Origin: Xanthobacteraceae bacterium
Lineage (GTDB): Bacteria; Pseudomonadota; Alphaproteobacteria; Rhizobiales; Xanthobacteraceae
Direction of reading: 5' to 3'
Length of the DNA: 64,000 bases
NCBI GenBank assembly: GCA_022844485.1
Contig: JALHLQ010000015.1
Coordinates: 1-64,000 of the forward strand
Shown here: positions 46,328 to 56,693 of the stretch, in pieces
Layout: the number at the start of each line of letters is the position of its first letter
Position numbering within the stretch: the stretch's first letter is position 1
The notes under the pieces: generated by a model
Database searches by the model: none
Seen by the model: only the letters and a program-made list of their open reading frames with translations
Told to the model about the DNA's origin: nothing
Program-made: the position numbers and the translations under genes

Positions 46328-46436
46328 GGACGCTCCTGGTTAACGGCGGCGACGATCTTCCTGGGCTGGCCACCGATCGGGCGACGTTATAATTGTATTG
46401 CGCGAAAAAAGTATAGTTCGGAGCGCCGGAAGAGCC

Positions 46437-47198
46437 ATGGCATTGGACACACGATCGCGTGTGCGCGCGCCGTTTGCGCCCGAGCTCGACCTGCCGCCCG
46501 GCTACCGGCTCCTGAGTCTGCGCGAGGTCGGCGACGCCTTCGTTCATGCCAAAGCCGTCGCAGCGCAGGAGGGTGCAGGCACGCTGGTCTGGGTCGGCCG
46601 GTTCGACCTCGTCGAATTTGCAGTCGTGCTCGAGCCGGCGGAGCCGCTGCGCACCGCTCGACGCGCGTTTTATGCAGGCATGGCGGCGCTGGCCGACGCC
46701 ATGGCGGTGCATGCGCCGCCGGAAAAACCGATCCATTTCGAGTGGCCGGATGCGATCCGCGTCGACGGCGGACTGGTCGGCGGCGGACGTCTCGCCTGGC
46801 CGGAGGGGGCCAGCGAGGACGAGGCGCCGGACTGGATCGTGTTCGGCGCGATGATCCGCACCGTCGCCATGGACGAGGGCGAGCCCGGGCTGAACCCGCT
46901 GTCCTCCGCGCTGGAGGAGGAAGGCTTCAGCGATCTTGAATCCGCGCGCATCGTCGAGAGCTTTTCGCGCCATCTGATGACGGCGGTGGACGCGTGGCAG
47001 GCGGACGGCTTCGGCGCCGTCGCACGCGACTATCTGTCGCGCATGCCGCCGGAGAAGGGCGTCCGGCGCGACATCGACGCGAGCGGCGATCTCCTTGTCC
47101 GCCGGATGGGAAAGGCGGATGTCGAGCGCCGCGCGCTGGCGCCCGCGCTGACCGCGCCGTCGTGGCTCGATCCGCGAACGGGAGGACCGGGGCGGTGA
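46437..47198 (+). CDS. Biotin/lipoate protein ligase-fold protein (degenerate)
   Basis: FEWPDAIRVDGGLVGGGRLAWPEG resembles BPL WPNDI..dgkKvgG. Confidence 0.7.
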   Translation: MALDTRSRVRAPFAPELDLPPGYRLLSLREVGDAFVHAKAVAAQEGAGTLVWVGRFDLVEFAVVLEPAEPLRTARRAFYAGMAALADAMAVHAPPEKPIHFEWPDAIRVDGGLVGGGRLAWPEGASEDEAPDWIVFGAMIRTVAMDEGEPGLNPLSSALEEEGFSDLESARIVESFSRHLMTAVDAWQADGFGAVARDYLSRMPPEKGVRRDIDASGDLLVRRMGKADVERRALAPALTAPSWLDPRTGGPGR

Positions 47199-47737
47199 AG
47201 CTGCTGCGCACGATCCGGCTCGATCCCTCCGACACGTTCGTATTCGATTCGGCGGCTGAGCCCGGCGAATGGGCGGTGCCCGGCGCATTCATGTTCATGG
47301 ACATCGAGCTCGATGCGCTTTCGGGCAAGGCGCGCGTCGCCTTCCGCTCGGGATTCCTCGGCGTGCAATCGCTCGGCTGGTCGACGCTCTGCCAGATCGT
47401 CGAGACAAGCGACGAGGGTCTCGTCGGCGCGGTCAACCAGCTTGCGACACAGCTCGTCGCCAAGTTCGGCGCGCCCGATATCGAGACGGCGCGCGCGGCG
47501 GCCGAAGAGGAATTCGCATTTGCGGCCTCGCTTTGCGATCATCCCAAGGACACGCTCATCGCGATGCACCGCGTCTTCGAGGACGGCGCGATCCGCGAAA
47601 CATTCCGCACCTTGCGGCCGCGCGAGGGAGAGCGTCCGCTTCGCGCCTTCGCCTTCATGGAGGTCGACGGCGAGGAGGAACTGGCGCCGGAGGAGCGCGT
47701 CGATCTCGTATCGATGGCGGGCAGGGGGAAGCGGTGA
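47195..47737 (+). CDS. DUF6505-like FDH-locus protein
   Basis: GTG start overlapping the upstream stop; position and size as in rhizobial FDH loci (recalled family, not searched). Confidence 0.6.
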   Translation: MKLLRTIRLDPSDTFVFDSAAEPGEWAVPGAFMFMDIELDALSGKARVAFRSGFLGVQSLGWSTLCQIVETSDEGLVGAVNQLATQLVAKFGAPDIETARAAAEEEFAFAASLCDHPKDTLIAMHRVFEDGAIRETFRTLRPREGERPLRAFAFMEVDGEEELAPEERVDLVSMAGRGKR

Positions 47738-48789
47738 TGGTCCAGATTCATCATTCCGGGGCACAGATGCCCGCTTCGCATGTGAATGACTTCTGGCTCT
47801 CCTGCGGACATCATCTGCTCGACCGCGACGAGGGCGGCGGACTGGTCGCCACCGACGCGTTTCTCAAAGCGTATCTCGCCAGGCCGGAGCTGGCGCCGCC
47901 GCCGGAGGCCTGCGTGGTCGAGCGCACGCTCCATTCTGCGCTGATGACCGACCCGCGCCGGCCGATCGGCCGGGACGAGATCGCGGCGATCGCGGACGCG
48001 GACGCTCGGGAGAACTGGCAGGTCATGATTGCCTTTCGCGATCATCTCATCGCGCACCGCACCATCGAGGCGGCCTATCTCGCGCTGGCGCGCGGTGAAA
48101 TGCGCAACACGCCGCAATTGTTCGTCAATCAGCTCGTGCACGTGATCCTTCGCAACATCCTCGACGAATGCCAGGATGTCTATGTCCTGCGCGCCGCGGA
48201 GATGTTCTTCCGCCCGCAGCGGCTCACGGTGCATGAAGGCTCGCTGATCGCCGCCGATGACGAACTGATTGCGGGAGCCGGGGGCGGGCCGGTGTCGCCG
48301 CTCGTCTCCATGCTCGGCTTGCCGTCGCAATCGGAGATCGACGTGCTCGCCGACGACAATGCGCAGAGCTATTGGGAGCGCAGCGACAAGTTCGACATGG
48401 CCCTCGACATGACTGCGGGGCGGCGCGGCCACATTGCGCTCGCCGAAGTGCTCCAACGCTGGATCCGGCACATCTTGTCGGTTGCGGTGGACGTCGATCC
48501 GCTGATCGAAGTGCAGGACGAGCGGTTCACCTGGTATGTCGGGCTGGACGCCGAAGGAACGAAGATCGGCGACGCGCTTTGGGAAGGCGAAGAGCTTGAC
48601 AGCGCCATGCAGGCTCGCGTCGTGGCGTTGTTTCGGCTGACCTTCCGCGATCCTTCTCTCGTGGACGAGAAGGTCGGCCGCGAGCCCGTGTATCTCATTC
48701 TGGCGATGACGCCGGAGAAGACCTTGCGCCTGAAACCGCAGAACCTCGTCGTCGGCCTGCCGTTGCGGCAGAAGGAGGCCGTGAGTTGA
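47737..48789 (+). CDS. DUF6352-like FDH-locus protein
   Basis: Co-directional; NDFWLSCGHHLLDRDEGGGLVATDAFLKAYLARPEL; family name by recall. Confidence 0.6.
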   Translation: MVQIHHSGAQMPASHVNDFWLSCGHHLLDRDEGGGLVATDAFLKAYLARPELAPPPEACVVERTLHSALMTDPRRPIGRDEIAAIADADARENWQVMIAFRDHLIAHRTIEAAYLALARGEMRNTPQLFVNQLVHVILRNILDECQDVYVLRAAEMFFRPQRLTVHEGSLIAADDELIAGAGGGPVSPLVSMLGLPSQSEIDVLADDNAQSYWERSDKFDMALDMTAGRRGHIALAEVLQRWIRHILSVAVDVDPLIEVQDERFTWYVGLDAEGTKIGDALWEGEELDSAMQARVVALFRLTFRDPSLVDEKVGREPVYLILAMTPEKTLRLKPQNLVVGLPLRQKEAVS

Positions 48790-49298
48790 GCGCGACCCCG
48801 CTCCAGCGCATTCCGGTCGGTGTCGTGATCGAGCGCCGCAAGGCGACGAGTCCGTGGATCGATTGGCTTTGGCGGCCGCTCAGCGTTCTGCCCGGCGAGC
48901 CGGACACCCCGCTCTGGACGCAGCTCTCGAGCGATGCCGAGCGCGCGACCTTCTATGCCGGCGCGGCCGAGATCGAACTGCACCGGACGGATACGACCTA
49001 CTACCGCGACAATATCGCGACCGGCGAGCCGAAGCTGTGGGTCGTGCTGCGACCGACCAATCTCGAGCCGCCATTCGATCTCGTGGCGGTTACGGCTGAT
49101 CCGGGGGAAGGGGAGGGGTTCACGCAGGCCGGGACCGATCTGGTCGAGCCGGTGCCGATGCCGCAACATATCCAGGACGTCATCGCGGCGTTCGTCGCCG
49201 AACACCATGTCGAGCGCGCCTTCTTCAAGCGCAAGCGCGACCGCGCCGATCCGGAATCGCTCGCCAAGCGCAGCCAAGTCGATGGGGAGGAGCCATGA
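48786..49298 (+). CDS. DUF3305-like protein
   Basis: IPVGVVIERRKATSPWIDWLWRPLSVLPG; position in FDH locus. Confidence 0.75.
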   Translation: MSATPLQRIPVGVVIERRKATSPWIDWLWRPLSVLPGEPDTPLWTQLSSDAERATFYAGAAEIELHRTDTTYYRDNIATGEPKLWVVLRPTNLEPPFDLVAVTADPGEGEGFTQAGTDLVEPVPMPQHIQDVIAAFVAEHHVERAFFKRKRDRADPESLAKRSQVDGEEP

Positions 49299-50074
49299 GC
49301 GACTCCGAGCCGTTCCTGTCGCGCTGGTCACGCCGAAAGCGGGAGTCCGAGGACGCGGCGGCCCCGGAACGCTCAACTCCGCCGGTCGCCGGAGCCGCCG
49401 GAGCCGAGCAGACGCAACCGGCCGAAAGCATTCGGACGGCGACCTCGACGGGGGCGGACGCGCCGGGCTGTCCACCCGCGACCACCGGGCCTTCCCAAGA
49501 CCAAGATCTTGAAGGTCTGCTCACCAAGCTTCCGAACATCGAAGACCTGACCTCGCAGAACGATCTCGTCGCTTTCATGCAGCGCGGTGTGCCGGATGCC
49601 CTCCGCAACGCTGCGCTCCGAAAGATGTGGTCGGTCGATCCGGCCATTCGCGACTTTGTCGGGTTCTATGCCGATTACGCCTGGGACTGGAACACGCCGG
49701 GCGGCGCCCCGGGCTGCGGGCCGTTGACCGAATCGGATGATGTGCAGGTCACCTTGCGGCAGCTGTTTGGCCATCCGTCGACGGAGACCGTCGATGCGTC
49801 AGTCGCGCGCGAGGACGAACCAGTCAGGGAAGTGCCGCGCGATCAAACGCCGCAGGCTGCAGACCTCGATGCTGAAGGCAATCATGCTGCGACGCAACAG
49901 CAAGCGGGCGGAGCCGGTGACACCGAGGTTCCTGATGCAGAACCTGCCCAGGACTTGGCGGTAATGTCGGAGGAATTCCGCGCCGAGGACAAAGGCCCTG
50001 CCGACTTCGAAGCCGGGCCGGACAGTGAGCTTCTGTTGACGCGACGCAGACACGGCGGCGCGATTCCCGCTTGA
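49295..50074 (+). CDS. DUF3306-like protein
   Basis: FLSRWSRRKRE N-terminus; LPNIEDLTSQNDLVAFMQRGVPDALRNAALRKMW. Confidence 0.75.
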   Translation: MSDSEPFLSRWSRRKRESEDAAAPERSTPPVAGAAGAEQTQPAESIRTATSTGADAPGCPPATTGPSQDQDLEGLLTKLPNIEDLTSQNDLVAFMQRGVPDALRNAALRKMWSVDPAIRDFVGFYADYAWDWNTPGGAPGCGPLTESDDVQVTLRQLFGHPSTETVDASVAREDEPVREVPRDQTPQAADLDAEGNHAATQQQAGGAGDTEVPDAEPAQDLAVMSEEFRAEDKGPADFEAGPDSELLLTRRRHGGAIPA

Positions 50075-50110: not shown

Positions 50111-50143
50111 TTGTCTTTGCCGCTCATAGCCTCCTACTATGAG
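50111..50143 (+). promoter_or_regulatory. Candidate promoter (TTGTCT-N18-TACTAT) overlapped by dyad CTCATAG-N7-CTATGAG
   Basis: -35 candidate 50111-50116, -10 candidate 50135-50140, perfect 7-bp inverted repeat 50123-50129/50137-50143. Confidence 0.5.
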
Positions 50144-50204: not shown

Positions 50205-50978
50205 ATGCGGGACCAAGGGCTGGAAGAAGCGATTCGCGCTGTCGGCGGCGTCGGCGCCCTTGCCCGAACTTTGGGCATTTCACAACCGTCCGTTTCCAAT
50301 TGGCAAAAGGTGCCCGCGGATCGCGTGCTCGCGGTTGAGTCGGTGTCGGGGGTGTCGCGCTCGGTGCTGCGTCCCGATCTGTACGGCGACATGGTCGAAG
50401 ACGCGGCCGACGAACTCGATCAGGCGCGCGCGCAGGAATATCAGCTCTTGGCCACGCTGCTGCTCCGTGCGCCGAGCGACGAAGTGCTCGCGCAGCTTGC
50501 GACGATCAAGGGCGATGCAAGCCCGATCGGCATGGCGCATCTGGCGCTTGCCAGTGCCGCCGAGTCGAGCGACGCGGATTCGGTTTCGCGGGAATACTTC
50601 GATCTCTTTATCGGACTTGGGCGCGGCGAGCTTCTGCCCTACGCCTCCTATTATCTGTCTGGATTTCTGCACGAGCGGCCGCTCGCGCGCTTGCGCGATG
50701 ATCTCGCGCGACTTGGGATCGAGCGGCGCGACGGAGTGTACGAGCCGGAGGATCACGCCGGCACGCTGTTCGAGATCATGAGCCTCTTCGCCGGCGGCAC
50801 AATCGCAATCTCGCGCGAGGAGCAAACGAATTTTTTCAACCGCCATCTCAAGCCGTGGATAGGCCGCTTCCTCGCCGATCTCGCGGTGGCGCAGCGCGCG
50901 ACATTCTACAAGGCGGTGGCTGCGCTCGGGACGGCCTTCGTCGAAATCGAGACCGAGGCATTCGGGCTGCCTGATTGA
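50205..50978 (+). CDS. YdaS/Cro-like HTH fused to TorD-family molybdoenzyme chaperone
   Basis: N-terminus LEEAIRAVGGVGALARTLGISQPSVSNWQKVPADRVLAVESVSGVSRSVLRPDLYG, then TorD helical domain SREYFDLFIGLGRGELLPYASYYLSGFLHERPLARLRDDLARLGIER. Confidence 0.9.
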   Translation: MRDQGLEEAIRAVGGVGALARTLGISQPSVSNWQKVPADRVLAVESVSGVSRSVLRPDLYGDMVEDAADELDQARAQEYQLLATLLLRAPSDEVLAQLATIKGDASPIGMAHLALASAAESSDADSVSREYFDLFIGLGRGELLPYASYYLSGFLHERPLARLRDDLARLGIERRDGVYEPEDHAGTLFEIMSLFAGGTIAISREEQTNFFNRHLKPWIGRFLADLAVAQRATFYKAVAALGTAFVEIETEAFGLPD

Positions 50979-51021: not shown

Positions 51022-51225
51022 ATGAAAAAGGAAACGCAGACCCAAGGTGTGGATCGCCGCGGATTCCTGCGCTCGCTCGGTGCGGGCGCCGGGGCTGCTG
51101 CCGTTGCCGCCGCGCCTGTTGCGCTGACGGAGGCGCAAGCCGCCGAATCAGACGCCGACAAGAAGAAGGCGCGCTATCGCGAAACCGATCACGTCAAGAC
51201 CTACTACCGGACCAACCGCTACTAA
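51022..51225 (+). CDS. Small Tat-signal protein of formate dehydrogenase loci
   Basis: DRRGFLRSLGAGAGAAAVAAAP twin-arginine leader; 67 aa; immediately upstream of fdhA. Confidence 0.85.
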   Translation: MKKETQTQGVDRRGFLRSLGAGAGAAAVAAAPVALTEAQAAESDADKKKARYRETDHVKTYYRTNRY

Positions 51226-51237
51226 GGGAGGCACGCC

Positions 51238-54210
51238 GTGCTCATCAGGCGCAAAGACGCAACCCCGCAGCGCTCGAAGCTCACCGCGGCCTTCACGGCC
51301 ATGTCCGGTGGCGCGCTCGATCGCCGCACGTTCCTGAAACGCTCCGGCCTTGCCGCGGGCGGGCTCGCCGCACTCGGCACGCTCACGCCCGCCTCGGTGA
51401 AGCGCGCGGAGGCCGGTCCCATGAAACCCGGCGTGCCGATTGTTCTAAAGAAGAACGTCTGCACGCATTGCTCGGTCGGCTGCACCGTCATCGCCGAAGT
51501 ACAGAACGGTGTGTGGGTCGGCCAGGAGCCAGCCTGGGACAGCCCGATCAACCGCGGCACGCATTGCGCCAAAGGCGCATCGGTTCGTGAACTCGTTCAC
51601 GGAGACCGCCGGCTGAAATACCCGATGAAGCTCGCCAACGGCCAGTGGCAGCGACTCTCCTGGGAACAGGCGATCAACGAGATCGGCGACAAGATGCTGT
51701 CGATCCGGGAAAAGAACGGCGCCGACTCGGTCTATTTCCTCGGTTCGGCGAAGTTCTCGAACGAAGGCGCTTATCTTCTGCGCAAGTTCGCGGCTTTCTG
51801 GGGCACGAACAACGTCGACCATCAGGCCCGCATCTGCCACTCGACGACGGTCGCCGGCGTCGCGAACACCTGGGGCTATGGCGCGCAAACCAACAGCTAT
51901 AACGACATCCGCAACTCCAAGACGATCATCTTCATGGGCTCAAACGCTGCCGAGGCGCATCCGGTCTCGCTGCAACACGTGCTGTCCGGCAAGGAGATGA
52001 ACCGCGCCAACATGATCGTCATGGATCCCCGGTTCACGCGAACCGCGGCTCACGCCAACGAATATGTGCGCTTCCGTTCCGGCACCGACATCCCGGTGAT
52101 CTGGGGCATGATGTGGCACATCTTCAAGAACGGATGGGAGGACAAGCAATTCCTCGCCCAGCGCGTTTGGGGCATGGACCAGGTCCGCCGGGAAGTTGAG
52201 AAGTGGGATCCGAAGACCGTCGAGGACGTCACCGGCATTCCAGGAGCGCAACTCGAGCGTGTCGCGAAACTGTTCGCGACCGAGCGGCCCGCCACCTTCA
52301 TCTGGTGCATGGGCGCAACGCAACACACGGTCGGCACCGCCAATGTGCGCGCGTTCTGCAACCTGATCCTCGCAACCGGCAATGTCGGCGCCAACGGCAC
52401 CGGCGCCAACATCTTCCGCGGCCACTGCAACGTGCAGGGGGCGACCGATCTCGGCCTCGATGTCACGACGCTGCCGCTCTATTACGGGCTGGTCGAAGGG
52501 GCATGGCGGCATTGGGCGCGCGTGTGGGAGGTGGAATACGACTGGTTCCAGTCGCGCTTCGACCAGGTGCCCGAAAAGGGCGGGCGCAAGGGTCGCACGC
52601 GCAAGGAGAACATGGAGTTTCCCGGACTCACCTCGACGCGCTGGTTCGACGCGACGAACATGCCGGCCGAGCAGGTCGATCAAAAAGACAACCTCAAGGC
52701 AATGGTCGTCTTCGGACACGGTGGGAATACGATCCCGCGCATGCCGGAAGCCGCCAAGGGCCTGGCCAATCTTGACCTTCTGGTGGTCGCCGATCCGCAT
52801 CCCACAACGTTTGCGGTGCTCGGCGAGCGCAAGGAGAACACCTATCTCTTGCCGATCTGCACGCAGTTCGAGTGCGACGGGTCACGCACCGCGTCCAATC
52901 GCTCGCTGCAATGGGGCGAACAGGTCGTCAAGCCGATCTTCGAGTCGAAGAACGACTATGAGGCGATGTATCTGCTCGCGCGCAAGCTCGGTTTCGCCGA
53001 CCGGATGTTCAAGAACATCAAGCTCGACGGCGCGGCGCCGCTGGCCGAGGACATCCTGCGGGAGATCAACCGCGGCGGATTCTCGACCGGCTATTCCGGC
53101 CAGTCGCCGGAGCGGCTGAAGGCGCATATGAAGAACCAGGACAAGTTCGACCTGGTCTCGCTGCGCGCGGCGAAAGACACGCCGGAGGTCGGCGGCGACT
53201 ATTACGGCCTGCCCTGGCCGTGCTGGGGTACGCCTGCGGTCAAACATCCGGGCACGCACACGCTCTACAACACCAACCTTCATGTGAAGGATGGCGGCGG
53301 CACATTCCGTGCGCGCTTCGGCGTGGAGCGCGAGGTCACGCGTCCCGACGGGACCAAGGCGATGGAAACCTTGCTGGCCGAAGGCTCCTACAGCCAAGGC
53401 TCGGAGATCCGCGACGGCTATCCGGAATTCACCTACGGCCTGCTCAAGAAGCTCGGCTGGGACAAGGAGCTCACGGAGGCTGAGAGGACCACGATCGAGC
53501 GGATCGGCGGCAACAATCCGGACAATGTCGGCTGGGCCATCGACCTCTCCGGCGGCATCATCCGCGTGACGATGGAACACGGCGTCATGGCCTACGGCAA
53601 TGCCAAGGCGCGCGCCGTGGCCTGGAACCTGCCGGACCCGATCCCGGTGCATCGCGAGCCGCTCTACACGCCGCGCGTCGATCTCGTGGCGAAGTATCCG
53701 GCCCGCGCCGACGAGCGCACGTTGCGCATGCCGAATCTGCACACCACGGTCCAGAAGACGGCGGTGGAAAAGGGCATCGCGAGGCAATTCCCGATCATCC
53801 TCACCTCGGGCCGTCTCGTCGAATACGAAGGCGGCGGCGAGGAGACCCGCTCCAACAAGTGGCTCGCCGAACTGCAGCAAGACATGTTCGTCGAGATCAA
53901 TCCGGCGGATGCCTCCTCGCGCAACATCAGGGACGGACAATGGGTGCTCGTGTCCGGACCGGAAATGGAAGCGGGCAAGGCCACGCGCGTAAAGGCGCTC
54001 GTGACCGAACGCGTCGGGCGTGGCGTCGCCTTCATGCCGTTCCACTTCGCCGGCTGGTTCCAACAGGTCGATCAGCGTTCGAAGTATCCGTCGGGGACGG
54101 ACCCGATCGTGCTTGGCGAGTCCGTCAACACGGTCACCACCTACGGTTTCGATCCGGTAACCGCAATGCACGAAGGCAAGGTCACGCTTTGCCAAATTCG
54201 GGCGGCGTGA
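51238..54210 (+). CDS. fdhA: Formate dehydrogenase alpha subunit (Mo-bisMGD, Cys-type, Tat-exported)
   Basis: GTG start; DRRTFLKRSG Tat motif; CTHCSVGCTV 4Fe-4S; HQARICHSTTVAGVANTWGYGAQTNS with Cys at the Sec position. Confidence 0.95.
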   Translation: MLIRRKDATPQRSKLTAAFTAMSGGALDRRTFLKRSGLAAGGLAALGTLTPASVKRAEAGPMKPGVPIVLKKNVCTHCSVGCTVIAEVQNGVWVGQEPAWDSPINRGTHCAKGASVRELVHGDRRLKYPMKLANGQWQRLSWEQAINEIGDKMLSIREKNGADSVYFLGSAKFSNEGAYLLRKFAAFWGTNNVDHQARICHSTTVAGVANTWGYGAQTNSYNDIRNSKTIIFMGSNAAEAHPVSLQHVLSGKEMNRANMIVMDPRFTRTAAHANEYVRFRSGTDIPVIWGMMWHIFKNGWEDKQFLAQRVWGMDQVRREVEKWDPKTVEDVTGIPGAQLERVAKLFATERPATFIWCMGATQHTVGTANVRAFCNLILATGNVGANGTGANIFRGHCNVQGATDLGLDVTTLPLYYGLVEGAWRHWARVWEVEYDWFQSRFDQVPEKGGRKGRTRKENMEFPGLTSTRWFDATNMPAEQVDQKDNLKAMVVFGHGGNTIPRMPEAAKGLANLDLLVVADPHPTTFAVLGERKENTYLLPICTQFECDGSRTASNRSLQWGEQVVKPIFESKNDYEAMYLLARKLGFADRMFKNIKLDGAAPLAEDILREINRGGFSTGYSGQSPERLKAHMKNQDKFDLVSLRAAKDTPEVGGDYYGLPWPCWGTPAVKHPGTHTLYNTNLHVKDGGGTFRARFGVEREVTRPDGTKAMETLLAEGSYSQGSEIRDGYPEFTYGLLKKLGWDKELTEAERTTIERIGGNNPDNVGWAIDLSGGIIRVTMEHGVMAYGNAKARAVAWNLPDPIPVHREPLYTPRVDLVAKYPARADERTLRMPNLHTTVQKTAVEKGIARQFPIILTSGRLVEYEGGGEETRSNKWLAELQQDMFVEINPADASSRNIRDGQWVLVSGPEMEAGKATRVKALVTERVGRGVAFMPFHFAGWFQQVDQRSKYPSGTDPIVLGESVNTVTTYGFDPVTAMHEGKVTLCQIRAA

Positions 54211-54223
54211 GGGAGACTGAACA

Positions 54224-54820
54224 ATGGCTCGAATGAAATTCCTCTGCGACGCCGACCGTTGCATCGAGTGCAACGCTTGCGTCACCGCCTGCAAGAACGA
54301 GCACGAAGTGCCGTGGGGCATCAACCGCCGGCGCGTCGTCACGATCAACGACGGCAAGCCGGGCGAGCGGTCGATCTCGATGGCCTGCATGCACTGCACG
54401 GATGCCCCTTGTGCGTCCGTGTGCCCGACAAACTGCTTCTACACGACGGCCGACGGCGTCGTGCTGCATTCGAAGGAACTGTGCATCGGGTGCGGCTATT
54501 GCTTCTATGCCTGCCCGTTCGGCGCGCCGCAGTATCCGCGCGTCGGCAATTTCGGCTCGCGCGGCAAGATGGATAAGTGCACCTTCTGCGCCGGCGGACC
54601 GGAGGCGGATTCGACGCCCGCGGAATATGCCAGCTACGGTTCGAACCGGCTCGCCGAAGGCAAGCTCCCCCTCTGCGCCGAGATGTGCTCGACCAAATCG
54701 CTCCTGGCGGGCGACGGCGAAATCATCGCGCAGATCTACAAGGAGCGCGTCACGCGGCGCGGCTACGGCTCCGGCGCATGGGGCTGGAAGACGGCGTACA
54801 AGGAGACGGTCGCGATCTGA
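54224..54820 (+). CDS. fdhB: Formate dehydrogenase iron-sulfur (beta) subunit
   Basis: CDADRCIECNACVTACKNEHEVPWG and additional 4Fe-4S motifs. Confidence 0.95.
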   Translation: MARMKFLCDADRCIECNACVTACKNEHEVPWGINRRRVVTINDGKPGERSISMACMHCTDAPCASVCPTNCFYTTADGVVLHSKELCIGCGYCFYACPFGAPQYPRVGNFGSRGKMDKCTFCAGGPEADSTPAEYASYGSNRLAEGKLPLCAEMCSTKSLLAGDGEIIAQIYKERVTRRGYGSGAWGWKTAYKETVAI

Positions 54821-54932: not shown

Positions 54933-55964
54933 ATGATCCGATTTTCAACGTTGCGGGTGCTGATCGCCGCTTTTGCGATCGCGTTTGTCCCCGCCGTCTC
55001 GGCGCCGGCGGGCGCGCAGCAGCCGACATCGGTCAATCCAACCGCCAGCTCGGTGCAGGAGCAGCAGCTCCTGAACACGCTGCGTTCCGGCGACGTCATC
55101 GCCGGACGCGGCACCATTCCCGACCCGCGCGCCCATACGCTGATTCAGCCGGGCGGCCGCGAGTGGACCTACACGCATCAGGTGACGATGCATTGGATCG
55201 GCGCGATCGCGATCCTCGGCATGATCGCGGTGCTTGTCGCCTGGCGGTTAGCGAAAGGCGCGGTGAAGCTCGATCACGGGTATTCGGGCGTGAAGATCAC
55301 ACGCTTTACCGGCTTTGAGCGCTTCATCCACTGGTTCACCGCCGTGTCATTCATCGTACTTGCGCTGTCCGGGCTGAACATCACGTTCGGCAAGACGTTG
55401 CTTCTGCCGCTGGTCGGGCCGGAAGCCTTTGCGTGGCTGTCACAATGGGGCAAATACGCGCACAACTACCTCTCCTTCCCCTTCATGCTCGGCCTGCTCG
55501 TGTTGATCGGCATGTGGGCGCTCCACAATCTCCCGAACAAGGCAGACTTGCAGTGGATCAAGGAGGGCGGCGGCCTGATCCCCGGCAAGCATCCGGCGGC
55601 CGGCAAATTCAATGCCGGCCAGAAGATCATCTATTGGACGGTGGTACTGAGCGGCATCGCGCTGTCGATCACCGGCGTGTTCCTCCTGTTCCCGTTCAAC
55701 TTCGCAGCGACGGTGTCGGGAATGCAGCTCGTACAAATCATCCACGGGATCGTCGGCATGATCCTGGTCGGCGTGATGGTCGCGCATATCTACATCGGCA
55801 CGCCGGTGGGAATGGAGGGCGCGTTCCCCGCCATGGGCAGCGGCGAGGTGGACCTCAACTGGGCCAAGCAACATCACTCGCTCTGGGTCGAGGAGGAGAT
55901 GAGGGGTCGTGGGAAGCCGACCGCGCGTCCGCAAATGCCTCCCAGTGCGATCCCGGCGGAGTAA
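54933..55964 (+). CDS. fdhC: Formate dehydrogenase cytochrome b (gamma) subunit
   Basis: GFERFIHWFTAVSFIVLALSGLNITFGKTLLLPLVG; multi-TM cytochrome b556. Confidence 0.93.
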   Translation: MIRFSTLRVLIAAFAIAFVPAVSAPAGAQQPTSVNPTASSVQEQQLLNTLRSGDVIAGRGTIPDPRAHTLIQPGGREWTYTHQVTMHWIGAIAILGMIAVLVAWRLAKGAVKLDHGYSGVKITRFTGFERFIHWFTAVSFIVLALSGLNITFGKTLLLPLVGPEAFAWLSQWGKYAHNYLSFPFMLGLLVLIGMWALHNLPNKADLQWIKEGGGLIPGKHPAAGKFNAGQKIIYWTVVLSGIALSITGVFLLFPFNFAATVSGMQLVQIIHGIVGMILVGVMVAHIYIGTPVGMEGAFPAMGSGEVDLNWAKQHHSLWVEEEMRGRGKPTARPQMPPSAIPAE

Positions 55965-56025: not shown

Positions 56026-56132
56026 GAAGCAGGGCTGCGGGTCGCCGCCCCTTGAAAAGGGCAGGCCGGTTTGCGAAGCAATCCGGCAGGGATTGGCTTC
56101 TGATCGAATGGTGCAATGCTCAGGACAGCATT

Positions 56133-56693
56133 ATGCGCGTAATCGGATTGGCCGGCTGGAGCGGGGCGGGGAAGACCACGCTGCTCGCCAAGCTGATCCC
56201 TTTCCTCGCGGCGCGCGGGCTCACGGTCTCGACGCTCAAGCATGCGCATCACGCCTTCGACATCGATCAGCCGGGAAAGGATTCGTTCGAGCATCGCGCT
56301 TCGGGCGCAAGGGAGGTCTTGATCTCCTCCGCTCGCCGCTACGCGCTCGTGCATGAGCTGACCGGCGGTGAGACGGAAGCGACGCTCGCCGACCTGTTGC
56401 GCAGGCTTTCTCCCGTCGATCTCGTCATCGTGGAAGGCTTCAAGGCCTATGCGCATCCGAAGATCGAACTTCACCGCGCGGCGAACCGAAAGCCGCTGCT
56501 CTTCGGCGAAGCGCCGAACATCCGCGCGATTGCCACGGACACGGCGCTCGAGGTGCCGGTGCCGGTGGTGGATCTCGACAATGTCGCGGCGATCGCCGAT
56601 CTCGTGCTTGCGCTGGCCGAGCCGATTGAAACCGTTCTCGCCGCGCTCGGGGCCGCGCCGGCTCCCGAGCGGATCAAGCTGCGGCGCTCCTGA
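56133..56693 (+). CDS. mobB: Molybdopterin-guanine dinucleotide biosynthesis protein B
   Basis: GLAGWSGAGKTTLLAKLIPFLAARGLTVSTLKHAHH. Confidence 0.93.
   Translation: MRVIGLAGWSGAGKTTLLAKLIPFLAARGLTVSTLKHAHHAFDIDQPGKDSFEHRASGAREVLISSARRYALVHELTGGETEATLADLLRRLSPVDLVIVEGFKAYAHPKIELHRAANRKPLLFGEAPNIRAIATDTALEVPVPVVDLDNVAAIADLVLALAEPIETVLAALGAAPAPERIKLRRS

Follow-up and report, generated by a model that had tools for sequence, protein, structure and literature searches.

Why would a chaperone encoded in a formate dehydrogenase (fdh) operon carry at its N-terminus a helix-turn-helix (HTH) domain of the kind found in phage repressors? It is not well understood how expression of complex molybdenum and tungsten (Mo/W) enzymes is matched to the supply of cofactor and to export, and a chaperone with a domain predicted to read its operon's own operator would make this matching directly testable, with a predicted operator, a key recognition residue and natural HTH-less comparators in hand. 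The gene that raises the question lies in the window, i.e. the whole 64,000-nucleotide stretch of Xanthobacteraceae DNA that was analysed. Across many Alphaproteobacteria, its product is listed in databases only as a TorD chaperone; here it is given a name, HTH-TorD, and a site.

A chaperone joined to a repressor-type domain

The fused gene, its parts and its neighbours are as follows.

46398–50074, + strand: upstream operon conserved with fdh (BPL/LplA-like, DUF6505, DUF6352, DUF3305 and DUF3306 genes)
50205–50978, + strand: fused gene, 257 aa, ATG start, intact ORF; YdaS/Cro-type HTH and TorD-family chaperone
50205–50390, + strand: HTH domain, residues 1–62 (Pfam PF15943/PF14549, match to 3bd1, invariant QPS, W33 and LRPD), with the recognition helix around Q27-P28-S29-V30-S31-N32-W33
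50391–50411, + strand: flexible inter-domain linker, residues 63–69, pLDDT 61 in this block
50412–50975, + strand: TorD/DmsD-type chaperone domain, residues 70–257 (PF02613, DmsD/YcdY/NarJ fold, invariant columns)
51022–51225, + strand: formate dehydrogenase region TAT peptide (TIGR02811, 66.5 bits, cut-off 48.45)
51238–54210, + strand: fdhA, catalytic subunit, which carries a twin-arginine leader of its own (DRRTFLKRSG); likely client of the chaperone, a role assigned from position
54224–54820, + strand: fdhB, 4Fe-4S subunit, by sequence and position
54933–55964, + strand: fdhC, cytochrome b gamma subunit (TIGR01583, 159.2 bits)
56052–56693, + strand: mobB, molybdopterin-guanine dinucleotide adaptor GTPase, of the MobB family that is joined directly to the same HTH in two other genomes

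The initial annotation had read the gene as one uninterrupted frame joining an N-terminal YdaS/Cro-type HTH to a TorD-family domain, and this reading is borne out by the intact ORF and by three Pfam matches above their curated cut-offs: YdaS (PF15943, residues 6–62, 56.3 bits, 2.9e-15, cut-off 30), P22_Cro (PF14549, residues 6–62, 34.2 bits, cut-off 30.2) and Nitrate_red_del/TorD (PF02613, residues 105–223, 103.7 bits, 1e-29, cut-off 22.2). The protein scores below the NCBIfam equivalog cut-offs for TorD or DmsD proper (61.7 vs 132 and 41.6 vs 162). Among solved structures, those closest in sequence are the Xylella Xfaso1 Cro protein 3bd1 for the HTH (1.2e-6) and the TorD-family protein 9m26 for the chaperone part (2.3e-6).

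Whether the HTH-like segment folds at all had been left to structure prediction, which returns a confident domain. The AlphaFold model of the fusion (mean pLDDT 92.3, built on a 72-row alignment) comprises a helical HTH domain and a helical TorD domain with a weak linker at about residues 61–69; in Foldseek searches the modelled N-terminal part leads to 3bd1 (rmsd 1.2–1.8, TMt 0.76–0.80), a Cro-like helical fold, and the C-terminal part to DmsD, YcdY and NarJ. Low dN/dS in close pairs points to purifying selection on both halves and, together with the conservation of the HTH, rules out that the domain is a decaying relic. Because the chaperone half carries the conserved GELLPYxSxY and EPEDH signatures on a predicted TorD/DmsD fold, it is likely to bind a client.

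The DUF3306 gene ends 130 bp before the fused gene, and the placement directly upstream of the Tat peptide and fdhA is as first described: the TIGR02811 peptide and fdhABC come next, an arrangement shared with most relatives for which enough flanking sequence is available. Neither a toxin partner nor a prophage context for the HTH was found at this or related loci, the flanks being fdh and accessory genes. An fdh-linked TorD/DmsD with upstream DUF3305/DUF3306 has been described (PMC4464133); the main text of that paper nowhere uses helix-turn-helix, fused, fusion or DNA-binding.

Distribution of the fusion

The initial annotation had named a domain search as a check on conservation across FDH loci, and the fused architecture does recur. 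An HTH-only scan of named genomes finds this HTH encoded at 231 places; 80 were kept, of which 78 encode HTH-TorD and two HTH-MobB. Since 78 of 80 named loci share the layout, as does each full fdh-type torD orthologue from the window's own family in a first sample of relatives (13 genomes including the window's), it is not a product of chance. Full fdh-type orthologues from other families of the same order in that sample are unfused. Unfused forms dominate the class-wide sample, with fused forms in several families; in the phylum-wide sample no match beyond Alphaproteobacteria that spans the chaperone half is fused, and two copies within the window's own family are unfused as well. Overall, the fusion turns up repeatedly in Hyphomicrobiales and in some further Alphaproteobacteria. 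Among plasmid loci, the Bradyrhizobium genes are fused and those of Sinorhizobium, Methylobacterium, Microvirga and Pseudosulfitobacter unfused; the RefSeq-style annotation of the plasmid copies reads 'molecular chaperone TorD family protein' and nothing more.

A second type of fusion, with a different HTH, occurs in families f112 and f149 (lineage 2). Two independent origins are not proven by this, as the AU test does not reject a single origin for both HTH types; the tree shows only about four changes of fusion state, and many of its branches are poorly supported.

Several variants were seen along the way. The same HTH lies in frame with MobB instead of TorD at L097 7001–7852 (the same organism as L022 1501–2352) and at L102 7001–7753. 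At L025 1450–2580 a YdaS/Cro-like HTH is fused to CysD, a sulfate adenylyltransferase subunit, and followed by a CysN-like gene, making this another metabolic protein with an HTH of this type. L038 and L045 hold open frames of 441 and 429 aa in which TorD is preceded by a zinc-ribbon, transposase-like segment, either a fusion or a chance open frame. The fused gene on the plasmid of Bradyrhizobium sp. 184 (L221 2501–3292) has an altered HTH sequence (RISQPPVSDW), perhaps a sign of decay, yet the exact operator described below is still present.

A palindrome that accompanies the HTH

Spaced palindromes were counted without a preset motif in 82 non-redundant regions upstream of fused genes, and one, ATAG-N7-CTAT, occurs in 77 of them against 0.25 expected from dinucleotide shuffles (93 of 98 upstream regions overall). 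The window holds a single copy in its 64 kb.

50126–50140, no strand assigned: predicted operator ATAGCCTCCTACTAT, ATAG-N7-CTAT, within CATAG-N7-CTATG at 50125–50141

The site follows the class of the gene, being found at 95 of 99 loci with this HTH, 0/31 unfused loci and 0/20 loci with the second HTH type, although loci from one clade are not independent and the association of HTH and operator is weakly replicated in independent events (about four transitions). The second type has a palindrome of its own, ACAAA-N4-TTTGT, which is exact at 16 of 20 loci, within one mismatch at all 20, and absent from the other classes. Some loci represent the same genome fetched twice; with identical proteins collapsed as a control, the counts become 86/90 for this HTH, 0/30 for unfused genes and 12/15 for the second type with its own palindrome. 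Family f149 holds all three classes, each of which matches its expected site pattern. Among held-out loci, six of seven fused genes have the site and none of four unfused genes does, two of the latter coming from the window's own family, and on plasmids the site is present at the fused Bradyrhizobium genes and absent from the four unfused genera. Methylobacterium chaperones nest inside the fused clade and yet have neither HTH nor operator, the two having been lost together. The exact site is absent at L102, L123 and L062.

Rearranged loci add to this picture. At L079 the fused gene has been relocated ahead of DUF3305/3306 and two sites remain between DUF3306 and fdhA; L074 probably resembles it, but its contig ends just past the site. 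An HTH-MobB fusion in a genome whose best FdhA hit reaches 33% identity has a conserved HTH and a perfect CATAGG-N5-CCTATG upstream; neither the L097 nor the L102 genome has a close fdhA relative, and the operator is kept in the former and absent in the latter. Some species have extra copies (L083 3288, L094 3259, L119 315 and 342), at a divergent 4Fe-4S/BPL promoter or upstream of a WD40-cytochrome gene.

The one held-out fused locus without an ATAG site, L262, has a recognition helix that reads QPA rather than QPS, and its palindrome is ATAA-N7-TTAT. In its family, all 30 fused loci match ATA[AG]-N7-[CT]TAT. Of the loci with alanine at residue 29, eight have ATAA, one has ATAG and one a mixed site; of those with serine or threonine, 19 have ATAG and one a mixed site. 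In the clear cases (8/9 and 19/19) this gives a Fisher p of 3e-6. The ATAA state is found in three places on the chaperone tree, and the covariation comes down to two to four independent pairs, a number that does not allow a sign test.

The operator is thus predicted from a comparative footprint plus residue–base covariation, and on these grounds the fusion very probably binds DNA in a sequence-specific manner at 50126–50140. That the HTH half regulates the fdh operon, as was suggested from the window, is strongly supported by comparative sequence evidence: the palindrome is tied to the presence of the HTH, to its type and to one residue of its recognition helix, and the domain is best read as a module that binds this operator and acts at the promoter of the fdh operon. 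In these bacteria the chaperone would then probably exert direct control over the enzyme genes.

Sites elsewhere in the genome

In the 4.15 Mb of the window's genome the site occurs five times, against six occurrences for a reversed-pattern control, so that a large regulon is rejected; apart from those at fdh and perhaps at tup, the sites appear to be chance occurrences. One of the five precedes a tungstate-transporter operon, 94 bp ahead of a gene for a TupA-like tungstate-binding protein that is followed by a permease (G000:C22 around 51432; L140 1501–1515; L219 1933), and in genome G013 tupA is preceded by two sites (L218 2004 and 2039). No operator was found upstream of tupA at 30 further tupA loci from fused genomes, so that a conserved tup regulon is rejected and the tup site is at most lineage-specific. 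The gene itself is present in 29 of 30 fused genomes vs four of 22 relatives without an fdh chaperone.

From predicted operator to probable regulation

A standard promoter scan of the intergenic DNA upstream of the fused gene found nothing, and the promoter positions used here come from our own looser, alphaproteobacterial-style scoring, which has no shuffled control. In the window this scoring yields one candidate.

50111–50140, + strand: weak predicted promoter of low confidence, -35 TTGTCT (50111–50116), 18-nt spacer, -10 TACTAT (50135–50140), overlapped by the operator

Relative to such predicted promoters, the operator is centred at -41 to -43 in 36 of 76 scored loci, its right half touching a TTGACC -35 element, and at -14 to -22, between the hexamers, in 19 of the 76 including the window; in lineage 2, with the second HTH type, the centre is at -18.5 in most scored cases. 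Several f149 loci have a second site close to the start codon. Because the predicted operators overlap core promoter elements at varied positions, something that a repressor can accommodate but an activator as a rule cannot, the fusion is probably a repressor. In the upstream regions of L065, L073, L087 and others, a second inverted motif, rich in A/T and of the TTCGAAC-GTTCTTA type, lies about 50–65 bp downstream of the operator start, close to the predicted start site; it recalls an iron-response (Irr-type) box.

The reading we favour, with a probability of roughly 55%, is that the operon's assembly chaperone itself serves as a one-component regulator, such that transcription follows enzyme assembly. 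The HTH half would recognise ATAG-N7-CTAT in the fdh operon promoter; the fusion would bind there as a dimer and, as the overlap with the -35 or -35/-10 region suggests, mainly repress. The TorD half, by analogy with TorD, DmsD and NarJ, would bind immature FdhA or a Tat leader; when this client is bound or released, the hold of the HTH on the operator would shift, so that transcription tracks assembly. In the favoured sign the free chaperone represses and the client-bound chaperone releases, the opposite being possible. That client occupancy modulates DNA binding is an even bet; apo-FdhA or its Tat leader occupying the TorD half is a plausible switch on the same analogy.

A plain autorepressor, in which the HTH represses the fdh operon for a steady dosage of chaperone and enzyme while the TorD half is a chaperone that senses neither client nor cofactor, seems unlikely to us, yet it accounts equally well for operator conservation, promoter overlap and co-loss. 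The gap between HTH and chaperone varies from 10 to 32 residues among relatives, which argues against one rigid allosteric interface and gives no hint of tight coupling. However, at L079 the operator stays at fdhA and not before the torD gene, so that pure autoregulation misfits some loci, and the long retention of the fusion suggests that the linkage matters beyond the co-expression already given by the operon.

Activation is improbable. A centre near -43, as predicted at nearly half of the scored loci, would suit an HTH contacting sigma region 4, like lambda CI at PRM, but those promoters have a good TTGACC -35 and should need no help; moreover, the window, some 18 further loci and the majority of scored lineage-2 cases have the operator between the hexamers, an unlikely place for an activator. 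It is very improbable that the palindrome belongs to another regulator and the HTH is incidental: few independent evolutionary events stand behind the association, but the palindrome follows HTH type, is lost with the HTH, covaries with residue 29 and persists upstream of an HTH-MobB fusion whose genome has no close fdhA relative. Just as doubtful is a DNA tether that holds the chaperone near the fdh genes to capture nascent FdhA without transcriptional control, which would also keep the operator near fdhA after torD relocation but needs no core-promoter overlap, seen at most sites, and would find no client to capture at the tupA site of the window's genome.

Relation to known systems

More tentatively, and at somewhat less than even odds, HTH-TorD would define a class of one-component transcription factors with a dedicated maturation chaperone as sensor, in which promoter occupancy reports FdhA awaiting cofactor and export; in this lineage it would also tune tungstate uptake, and a loop would be closed from metal supply via enzyme assembly to gene expression. 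A non-exhaustive search of the open-access literature found neither a description of an HTH-TorD fusion nor a characterised precedent, in agreement with the initial annotation, which knew of no characterised chaperone-repressor of this type.

HTH-TorD shares with the TorD/DmsD/NarJ redox enzyme maturation proteins (PF02613) the fold, the EPEDH signature and an operon with a Tat-exported molybdo- or tungsto-enzyme, whereas the known members of that family are unfused. With Xfaso1 Cro, P22 Cro and YdaS it shares the HTH fold and sequence and a palindromic, here predicted, operator; unlike them it has no phage or toxin–antitoxin partner, is fused to a chaperone and serves a metabolic operon. In the apo-TorC/TorS negative feedback, HrcA-GroEL and FliT-FlhDC, a chaperone or maturation step couples gene expression to client load or assembly state, with chaperone and regulator as separate proteins; here they reside on one polypeptide. 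PutA, BirA and NadR are enzyme–repressor fusions that regulate their own pathway with an HTH of their own, and their sensor half is an enzyme reading its substrate, whereas in HTH-TorD the sensor half would be a protein-folding chaperone.
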